Source: Casimicrobium huifangae (GTDB taxonomy: Bacteria; Pseudomonadota; Gammaproteobacteria; Burkholderiales; Casimicrobiaceae). From it: a stretch of DNA of 64,000 nt. The notes below the pieces were generated by a model that saw nothing but the letters and a program-made list of their open reading frames with translations, had not been told where the DNA came from and did not search any database. Positions 53,656-55,260 of the stretch are shown one piece after another. Each line of letters opens with the position of its first letter. Within the stretch, counting starts at the first letter, position 1. A program made the translations under genes and the position numbers. The stretch is from contig NZ_CP041352.1 in the NCBI RefSeq assembly GCF_009746125.1, positions 709,847 to 773,846 of the forward strand, given 5' to 3'.

Positions 53656-55260
53656 ATGGTGCACAGCAGTATTCCAATCATGAACGATGATGCGTTGGAT
53701 GCCTCGACCGGCAGGCAGCCCGGCCGCGGGTTGGATGAACTGCTGCACGTGGTCTATCTCAGTCGGGCTGCGGCCGGAACGGACCCGGAAAAATGGTTGC
53801 CCGAACTGGAGCGCAATGCGCGGGCCCGCAACGATGCGGCGCAGATTCGTGGCGTGCTCGCCTACTGCCGCGGCTGGTTCCTGCAATGGCTGGAAGGTCC
53901 GGCCGCTGCCGTGGTGGAAACCATGGGCCGCATCGCTGTCGACAAGCGCCACCGCGACGTGCAGGTGATTTACGAGGCGAGTGGACCCCAGCAGCTGAAC
54001 AGTCCGTGGAGCCTGATCCGGGTGGCACGGGTAGACGATGCCGAGACGCTGGACGCTAGGGTACGCTCGCTGGCGACCGCTCTGCCGGGAGACAGCGTCG
54101 AACCGCAGGATTTTGTCCGCGCCTTCACCATGCCGTATGGTCGTCAGGGGCTCGACGATATCGCGAGCCAGCGTCCGGTGGTGGTGACCGGTGCCAACAT
54201 GATCTGGGCTTCGGCGGTGGTCAGTCAGGCCGCCCATGTTTCGCGCGTTGAGCTGGCGCGGACGCGCCTGCAATCACCTGATCTGCGTGACACCGATGGT
54301 CTGGTCGAATACCTGACCACCACTGATGGCCTGACGGTCATCGCCATCGCCTCATCGACGATGCCGGGCGGCTATCTTGAAGGCATTTATCACCGCGCCA
54401 AGCTGATCGTGTTTCTCATCCGCTCCAGCGATATCAATCACAAGATTGAGTTGCTGCGCGGCTTGATGACCATCCACACGGTTGCCGAGCACAGGCCGAC
54501 GTTTCTGTTCGCCTTTTCAACGGCTGCCGCGTCGCACAAGCACGAGTTTCTGCAAGTGGCCGACAGCCTCCGCGTGCCCTACACCGAAATCACGGTACCG
54601 CTGGCCGATTCCGCCATGCTCTGGCGAACCATTCAGGAACGCCTCGCCGCAACGGTGCTGCCGATGCACGCCAACCGTATGCGTCATCGTGGCATTGAGG
54701 CGGATACCCGGGCGAGCACTGGATCAGGGCCGGCCACCAGCCCGCCGCCCGCGACACCCATCAGCGGTCCGGCCAGCCGGCCCGCAGCGGCAACGCCCGT
54801 CTCGCCGCCGTCACCGGCAGCGGCAGCAGCAGCGAAGGGCGCGTCTGCGCCACCAGCAACCAGTTTTGTGTCCCAGCCAGTAACGAAGGGAGATTTCGAC
54901 ATGGCAAACGTAGCGGAAAGTCTGAAGGCAATCCTGTCAATCGACGGTGCGATGGGTTGCGCGCTCGTCGATGTGGAAAGTGGCATGGCGCTCGGTACGG
55001 CCGGTGGTGGCATCAATCTTGAGATTGCTGCGGCGGGCAATACCGAGGTGGTGCGCGCCAAGCTGCGGGTGGCCAAATCGCTTGGCATCACCGGCGGTAT
55101 CGAGGACATCCTGATCACGCTGCAGGACCAGTACCACTTGATCCGGCCGCTGACCAAAAAGGGAACGCTGTTCCTGTACGTGGTGATTGATCGCAAGAAG
55201 GGCAACCTCGCGATGGCGCGCTACAAGGTCAGCGAAGTTGAGGGCGCGCTGGTCGTCTGA
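53656..55260 (+). CDS. BLUF photoreceptor domain fused to a GTPase-like domain and a roadblock/LC7 domain
   Basis: This 534-residue protein has three parts. Residues 28-135 are a BLUF flavin light sensor: Y34 (HVVYLSRAA), N59 (ARARND), Q77 (GWFLQWLEG) and W118 (NSPWSL) match AppA Y21, N45, Q63 and W104 with nearly identical spacing, plus the D-x-R-H block. Residues 170-337 look like an alpha/beta domain of small-GTPase size (RPVVVTGAN, LTVIAIASS, KLIVFLIRSSD, RPTFLFAFSTAA) without a true P-loop. After a Pro/Ala-rich linker (350-405), residues 418-534 are a roadblock/LC7 (MglB-type) domain (VAESLKAILSIDGAMGCALVDVES). This suggests light-controlled polarity, motility or signalling. The gene stands alone. 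BLUF is certain, roadblock likely, and the middle domain tentative. Confidence 0.88.
   Translation: MVHSSIPIMNDDALDASTGRQPGRGLDELLHVVYLSRAAAGTDPEKWLPELERNARARNDAAQIRGVLAYCRGWFLQWLEGPAAAVVETMGRIAVDKRHRDVQVIYEASGPQQLNSPWSLIRVARVDDAETLDARVRSLATALPGDSVEPQDFVRAFTMPYGRQGLDDIASQRPVVVTGANMIWASAVVSQAAHVSRVELARTRLQSPDLRDTDGLVEYLTTTDGLTVIAIASSTMPGGYLEGIYHRAKLIVFLIRSSDINHKIELLRGLMTIHTVAEHRPTFLFAFSTAAASHKHEFLQVADSLRVPYTEITVPLADSAMLWRTIQERLAATVLPMHANRMRHRGIEADTRASTGSGPATSPPPATPISGPASRPAAATPVSPPSPAAAAAAKGASAPPATSFVSQPVTKGDFDMANVAESLKAILSIDGAMGCALVDVESGMALGTAGGGINLEIAAAGNTEVVRAKLRVAKSLGITGGIEDILITLQDQYHLIRPLTKKGTLFLYVVIDRKKGNLAMARYKVSEVEGALVV
54886..54903 (+). promoter_or_regulatory. internal Shine-Dalgarno and ATG inside the BLUF-roadblock gene
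   Basis: AAGGGAG (54886-54892) stands 8 nt before ATG 54901, codon 416, exactly at the start of the roadblock domain. It is better than the ribosome-binding site of the full-length gene. Translation here would make a free 119-residue roadblock protein in addition to the fusion. Confidence 0.55.

Follow-up and report, generated by a model that had tools for sequence, protein, structure and literature searches.

A BLUF photoreceptor joined to a predicted G-domain-like fold and a roadblock-type domain in Casimicrobium huifangae: a candidate blue-light input to a bacterial Ras-like GTPase system

P0001, the protein of 534 residues encoded on the forward strand at positions 53656-55260 of a 64,000-nucleotide stretch of the Casimicrobium huifangae genome (NZ_CP041352.1, positions 709,847 to 773,846; the window in what follows), joins in one chain a BLUF photoreceptor domain, a middle domain whose model is likely that of a G-domain-like fold devoid of nucleotide-binding motifs, a linker and a C-terminal domain that, judging from its predicted structure, very likely has the roadblock fold and belongs to a family for which the name RB2 is introduced here. 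Probably, P0001 feeds a blue-light signal into the MglA-type GTPase system of its own genome, which it would reach through RB2. Decisive support for the reading that blue light is passed on to a GTPase comes from operons of other bacteria, in which a BLUF protein is encoded between an RB2 gene and the gene of a P-loop GTPase; the window gene fuses parts that these BLUF operons keep as neighbours. The original prediction, made on the letters of the DNA, had blue light acting on a GTPase or polarity circuit. The GTPase part of this claim is supported by the BLUF operons and by the presence, in the same genome, of a GTPase of the kind accompanied by two roadblock-type genes, whereas the polarity part is not, the system matching the Group 3 MglA systems.

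Domain architecture of P0001

The open reading frame (ORF) begins with ATG, contains no internal stop and has a GC content at third codon positions (GC3) of 0.74-0.77 across its BLUF, middle and RB2 parts. The identity of the BLUF domain (residues 29-119; window 53740-54012, forward strand) is certain: the PF04940 profile matches it with E 8.6e-19 and 67.9 bits (curated cut-off 25), the closest solved structure is that of AppA (2bun, E 2.5e-12), and Y34, N59, Q77 and W118, which had been placed at the spacing of the AppA residues, are found exactly there, each of them being identical in all 31 aligned BLUF rows, the window row included. These residues make flavin binding and a photocycle a strong expectation. 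Elsewhere in the genome, BLUF is matched only once more (G000:C1:2052487-2052762, reverse strand), within a short frame of 143 residues and with a score above that of P0001 (110.8 bits).

The middle domain (residues 173-344; window 54172-54687, forward strand) had been described as 170 residues with the size and strand order of a small GTPase, but without a P-loop. Indeed, no Walker A (G1) motif is present in residues 173-344, and the loop after strand 1, the expected place of the P-loop (residues 179-186, GANMIWAS; window 54190-54213, forward strand), does not conform to GxxxxGK[ST]; the motif is found in none of the 47 middle-domain rows, as opposed to 18 of 19 operon GTPases. The strand order is recovered in structure prediction: two AlphaFold2 runs on different alignments, with P-loop GTPases absent from the rows, agree on the elements and on the residues that form them, the second run having a mean predicted local distance difference test score (pLDDT) of 84.9 and a predicted template modelling score of 0.82, and the predicted domain has the Ras-like order plus one short extra strand. 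When the model of the second run is compared with solved structures, as had been proposed, the best 50 of 351 PDB matches (E <0.001) are all small GTPases or complexes containing one, among which 9edt_G, from a tubulin cofactor complex, is presumably to be counted by virtue of Arl2. Within these best 50, Arf2-GDP comes first, with a template modelling score (TM) to the target of 0.70 and a root mean square deviation (rmsd) of 3.9 A, and Rab3B next (0.59, 4.5 A), the remaining 48 listed matches ranging over 0.38-0.52 and 6.6-9.4 A. What does not show is kinship at the level of sequence: sequence methods relate the middle of P0001 neither to GTPases nor to the other middle domains. The model likely indicates a G-domain fold, and the sequence tests on descent of this putatively nucleotide-free domain, a pseudo-GTPase by its predicted topology, from GTPases are negative. 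The G4 motif [NT]KxD has its sole match in P0001 at residue 410, in the linker and not in the right place; Group 3 GTPases often deviate in G4 too, according to part of the account in PMC4316618.

A linker rich in Pro, Ala and Ser (residues 345-414; window 54688-54897, forward strand; the three make up 59% of residues 346-414), which is predicted with low confidence, leads to RB2 (residues 415-534; window 54898-55257, forward strand). In P0001, RB2 is 53-60% identical to small proteins of related genomes and 53% to a paralogue in its own genome, 46-48% identical to two cyanobacterial proteins, and it keeps every one of the 27 columns in which ten further aligned RB2 proteins show no variation. 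Modelled by AlphaFold2 from 25 rows as part of residues 151-534, RB2 reaches a pLDDT of 82-96 (77 over its final four residues) and takes the order a-bb-a-bbb-a; among the best 50 matches listed by Foldseek, the model compares with MglB chains at a TM to the target of 0.70-0.82 and an rmsd of 2.0-3.0 A. The family profile run against 177,635 PDB sequences also has a roadblock protein as its top, albeit weak, match (E 0.094). The roadblock/LC7 domain of the original prediction was to stand or fall with a roadblock match to residues 418-534; taken literally it falls, since Pfam and NCBIfam scans give no roadblock match for residues 415-534, and the domain is therefore not filed as PF03259. PF03259 (cut-off 23) also misses the own-genome paralogue. 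The predicted fold does match MglB, and the failure is attributed to the reach of the Pfam model and not to an absent fold.

When the middle domain and RB2 are modelled together, Foldseek ranks Rag/Gtr-type entries, in which a G domain is followed by a roadblock domain, as PDB matches 1-17, with 390-402 columns aligned (the identity of the Rag chains being taken from titles and lengths). The whole-chain TM to these entries, 0.23-0.29 by query and 0.29-0.37 by target, is low because the domains are arranged differently.

GTPase operons of the RB2 family, with and without BLUF

The survey comprised 1604 overlapping genome-searches, part of the places found being entered in the set of loci (L numbers below). 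In a BLUF hidden Markov model search over all ORFs of 73 loci, which hold 86 RB2 ORFs, P0001 alone was found to carry a BLUF domain fused to RB2; the same search revealed locus L182, and 15 more loci and one plasmid record were then added. As a result, five operons are known in which RB2, a BLUF protein, a P-loop GTPase and the roadblock protein RB1 are encoded in that order on one strand, namely L182:8047-10434, L194:7788-10014, L195:5858-8199, L196:6599-8917 and, on plasmid pSU2 of Agarilytica rhodophyticola, L209:4612-6683 (WP_103654475 to WP_103654478, annotated as hypothetical, BLUF domain-containing protein, hypothetical and roadblock/LC7). L182 contains a second set, RB2, BLUF and RB1 without the GTPase, and the two sets together span L182:5614-10434. 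The operons of L182, L194, L195 and L196, which are the loci with BLUF among the 20 scanned for it, come from three genomes of one genus that belongs to the class of the window genome, but to another order and family. The BLUF gene lies 35-294 bases from the RB2 gene and directly adjoins or overlaps that of the GTPase; all six operon BLUF proteins exceed the BLUF cut-off, at 71.6-84.1 bits, and the Ras cut-off is passed by the GTPases of L182 and L194, whereas those of L196 and L209 fail it and pass PF03029.

The layout of these operons is best read against the Group 3 MglA systems, in which beta- and gamma-Proteobacteria combine an MglA homologue and either one or two homologues of MglB with a protein that has receiver-like and winged-helix regions, the winged-helix-like member being proposed to regulate transcription (PMC4316618, Wuichet and Sogaard-Andersen). 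The C-terminal regions of five operon BLUF proteins align in hhalign with those of the partner proteins of five GTPase operons (the window's genome, L041, L042, L191 and L193) with a probability of 93% and P 2.7e-7, as compared with P 0.57 for reversed controls; the operon BLUF thus occupies the position that the input half has in the Group 3 partner. The BLUF operons are themselves a candidate for a Group 3 MglA system under light control. The comparison made use of a protein of 321 residues from a conjugative plasmid of Acinetobacter wuhouensis, which carries RB2, a roadblock gene and this protein, whose C-terminus is related to the Group 3 partner.

Upstream of RB2, a catalase and a DNA-protection protein are annotated in Agarilytica (L209:1-1260), and a catalase-peroxidase-like ORF was recognized by eye in L182 (L182:3102-5396), so that a theme of light and oxidative stress is possible around these two loci.

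The search for mglA-like genes suggested with the original prediction finds in the genome of C. huifangae one P-loop GTPase of this type, with two roadblock-type genes next to it, and two RB2 domains in all. The operon (L036:6754-9205) encodes, in this order, a protein of 317 residues with a weak winged-helix match, a P-loop GTPase of 187 residues (Ras family, 24.2 bits versus a cut-off of 21.6), RB1, which at 20.6 bits is just below the PF03259 cut-off of 23 (passed by five of nine RB1 proteins scanned), and the RB2 paralogue (L036:8795-9205), which closes the run and is 52-53% identical to the RB2 of P0001. It shares with the Group 3 systems the assembly of partner, MglA-type GTPase and roadblocks in one operon, as far as these are described in the relevant part of PMC4316618; the RB2 of P0001 is of the type that the last gene of L036 encodes, and the BLUF operons retain the C-terminal region of the partner, but P0001 differs in being encoded outside the operon and in joining a photoreceptor, a G-like domain and RB2. 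A photoreceptor is not mentioned in that part of the account of Group 3 systems.

Among 29 standalone RB2 genes from part of the loci, 15 have such a GTPase upstream (within 2 kb and on the same strand), 17 have RB1 and 14 have both; five of these GTPases and three of the RB1 proteins had seeded the search profiles. A run of the same kind on a Comamonas plasmid is annotated as hypothetical, GTPase, roadblock/LC7 and hypothetical. In Leptolyngbya (L034:3805-12029), RB2 adjoins a chemotaxis-type cluster with CheY/CheA/MCP/CheW-type genes, and no GTPase of the family was found within 2 kb upstream.

From light to GTPase: a possible path and its alternatives

In the mechanism that we propose, the BLUF domain would bind flavin and photocycle under blue light, as its conserved residues strongly suggest; the signal might then pass to the nucleotide-free G-like domain, acting as a relay or interaction domain and not as a switch, and the RB2 domain would pair with the roadblock proteins of the L036 operon or substitute for its RB2. 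Light could in this way alter GTP hydrolysis by the L036 GTPase or the access of its partners, and the output would probably be a changed activity of the winged-helix-like L036 protein. How P0001 acts on the GTPase at the molecular level is inferred. In the other lineage, the same coupling would be built from separate genes, i.e. RB2, a BLUF protein with the C-terminal region of the Group 3 partner, the GTPase and RB1.

The light-to-GTPase reading is favoured by the BLUF operons, the RB2 invariants kept by P0001, the single partner set in its genome and the occurrence of RB2 behind another input (L079, see below). Several observations weigh against it. Some 2.28 Mb of the contig separate the gene of P0001 from the L036 operon, and no GTPase gene neighbours it; a recognized upstream GTPase is also missing for 14 of the 29 standalone RB2 genes, two of which have less than 1 kb of sequence covered, while one, in L182 (which holds two of the 29), has its GTPase downstream. 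An orthologue with the fused architecture was not found among the 86 RB2 ORFs of the 73 loci, and RB2 is not called a roadblock by Pfam. L120, just after the BLUF domain (window 54013-54015), occupies the position, two residues past the Trp, of the usual BLUF Met, which we take to be AppA M106 and to be common, not defining; Met is found there in 29 of the 31 rows and Leu in two, P0001 included, and L120 may alter the photocycle or the transfer of the signal. Among the operon BLUFs, the flavin-site Gln is replaced by Gly in two of six (L182:6147-6935 and L195) and the Trp by Lys in one (L209), so that some of them may not photocycle; the Tyr of the L196 BLUF is visible in the hhalign alignment. 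Finally, the BLUF domain of P0001 shows 27-34% identity to the operon BLUFs, no more than the 29-40% that it shares with ordinary ones; the fusion and the BLUF operons, therefore, arose separately at best. Blue-light control of bacterial Ras-like GTPase systems may then have been reached twice, once in the operons, where BLUF proteins take over from the input half of the Group 3 MglA partner, and once in the P0001 chain, which adds BLUF to a Rag-like layout of dead G domain and roadblock; we see the chances of this as evenly balanced.

Roadblock folds, as that of MglB, dimerise, and RB2 might be a dimerisation domain alone, in which case P0001 would be a stand-alone light sensor that acts by contact with some unrelated effector, and the L036 operon would have no bearing on it. 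The distance between gene and operon, the RB2 genes with no recognized GTPase upstream and the Leptolyngbya RB2 next to its chemotaxis-type genes would all suit such a sensor. However, a domain needed for dimerisation alone does not easily account for the 48-59% identity and the full complement of family invariants that the RB2 of P0001 keeps, for the complete partner set in the same genome or for the adjacency of BLUF and RB2 in GTPase operons of other bacteria, and we regard this explanation as unlikely. Even less credit, indeed very little, is given to P0001 being a recent chance fusion without a selected function. It is true that this genome alone yielded the fused architecture and that its type of middle domain, present there in one copy, has besides itself two weak partial matches (E 0.003-0.01) among 399 genomes of the order and a weak one with stops inside (E 5.8e-4) among 64 genomes of the family; but 534 codons without a stop, GC3 of the coding type, the retention of flavin-site residues and of all 27 RB2 invariants, and the adjacency of the same parts in operons of other bacteria are not what such an accident would leave.

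The middle domain, in turn, could have another alpha/beta fold, e.g. a receiver-like one, which has been put forward for the N-terminus of the partner protein in Group 3 systems, instead of that of a degenerate G domain. In both models, though, helix 2 is preceded by a pair of antiparallel strands, which receivers lack, the best 50 of 351 matches to the middle model are without exception small GTPases or complexes with one, and the two-domain model places 17 Rag/Gtr-type entries ahead of all others, which makes a different fold improbable, if somewhat less so than the dimerisation explanation. A G-like middle domain in P0001 remains the preferred reading.

Relation to known systems and wider occurrence of RB2

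P0001 shares with AppA and PixD the BLUF fold and the flavin-site residues, and differs from them in carrying roadblock and G-like domains, which, to our knowledge, are not among the known BLUF outputs (EAL, cyclase, PixE partner). Sensor-roadblock fusions (globin, response regulator) and GTPase-roadblock fusions (Rag, Asgard) are already known, at least from the parts of the literature drawn on here. HGbRL of Methylacidiphilum, a haem globin sensor with a C-terminal Roadblock/LC7 domain (PMC4476040, as excerpted), resembles P0001 in the fusion of a sensor to a C-terminal roadblock and in coming from a genome with a separate roadblock-GTPase pair, but its sensor is a haem globin and not BLUF, and it has no G-like domain. 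Rag/Gtr and the Asgard GTPase-roadblock proteins (PMC10933270, in part) have, as predicted for P0001, a G domain and then a roadblock domain in one chain; they are, however, GTPases, while in P0001 the G1 motif is missing, the linker is long and of low confidence, and a BLUF domain stands at the N-terminus. Response_reg and Robl_LC7 fusions, noted in PMC4316618, and the L079 protein place an input domain on a roadblock-type output as P0001 does, with phosphorylation-type input instead of light. The actinobacterial conservons CvnA-D follow the same logic of sensor, MglB-type roadblock and MglA-type GTPase, but with a histidine kinase encoded in the operon as the sensor, whereas sensor and roadblock are in one chain in P0001 (PMC4316618, same part). 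A BLUF-roadblock protein was not found in the open-access literature, in a search on the fusion protein that predated the finding of the BLUF operons.

If the proposal is true, BLUF outputs would extend to the control of a Ras-like GTPase via a roadblock partner, the uncharacterised Group 3 MglA systems would gain a switchable input, and bacteria would be shown to have the Rag layout of G domain and roadblock, though with a G domain whose nucleotide site has been lost. The system consists of a few small proteins, and an example of the BLUF operon occurs naturally on a plasmid of the marine bacterium A. rhodophyticola.

Fusions of RB2 to other domains are not confined to P0001. Out of the 86 RB2 ORFs, 52 have more than 110 residues ahead of RB2, and 41 of these 52 form one family of middle domain, linker and RB2, which, with two further members missed by the length rule (L167 and L173), comprises 43 proteins with a P-loop-less middle domain, a linker and a divergent RB2 (L080, L081, L143-L150 and L161-L180). 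All come from one family-level group, the most heavily sampled, often as two paralogues per genome. Four RB2 ORFs with a long N-terminus make up a second group. In L078, RB2 follows a degenerate domain and a Pro-rich linker, and L079:6777-8018 combines a response regulator, DUF4388 (PATAN) and RB2 in one protein, i.e. a different input on the RB2 output. The long N-termini of L076, L153 and L158 are, by eye, due to a mechanical upstream start. From the fusions were picked the 24 relatives of alignment A3 and the 46 of alignment A4, the latter excluding L076, L079, L153, L158 and L162:3870-6860. In L145, paralogues of the middle-linker-RB2 family bracket nadA, nadC and a nadB-like gene.

The RB2 family is widespread. 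It was found in 14 of 399 genomes of the order of the window genome, in 29 of 369 of the class (13 of them solely through matches of E 7e-9 or worse) and in 72 of 250 of the family of genome G320, these samples overlapping and part of the places found being taken up. It is also plasmid-borne, in Streptomyces, Deinococcus and Hymenobacter among others (L190-L193 and further records), where it is mostly annotated as hypothetical or left unannotated: among 20 plasmid records listed with RB2, 13 annotate a hypothetical protein and seven have no feature there.
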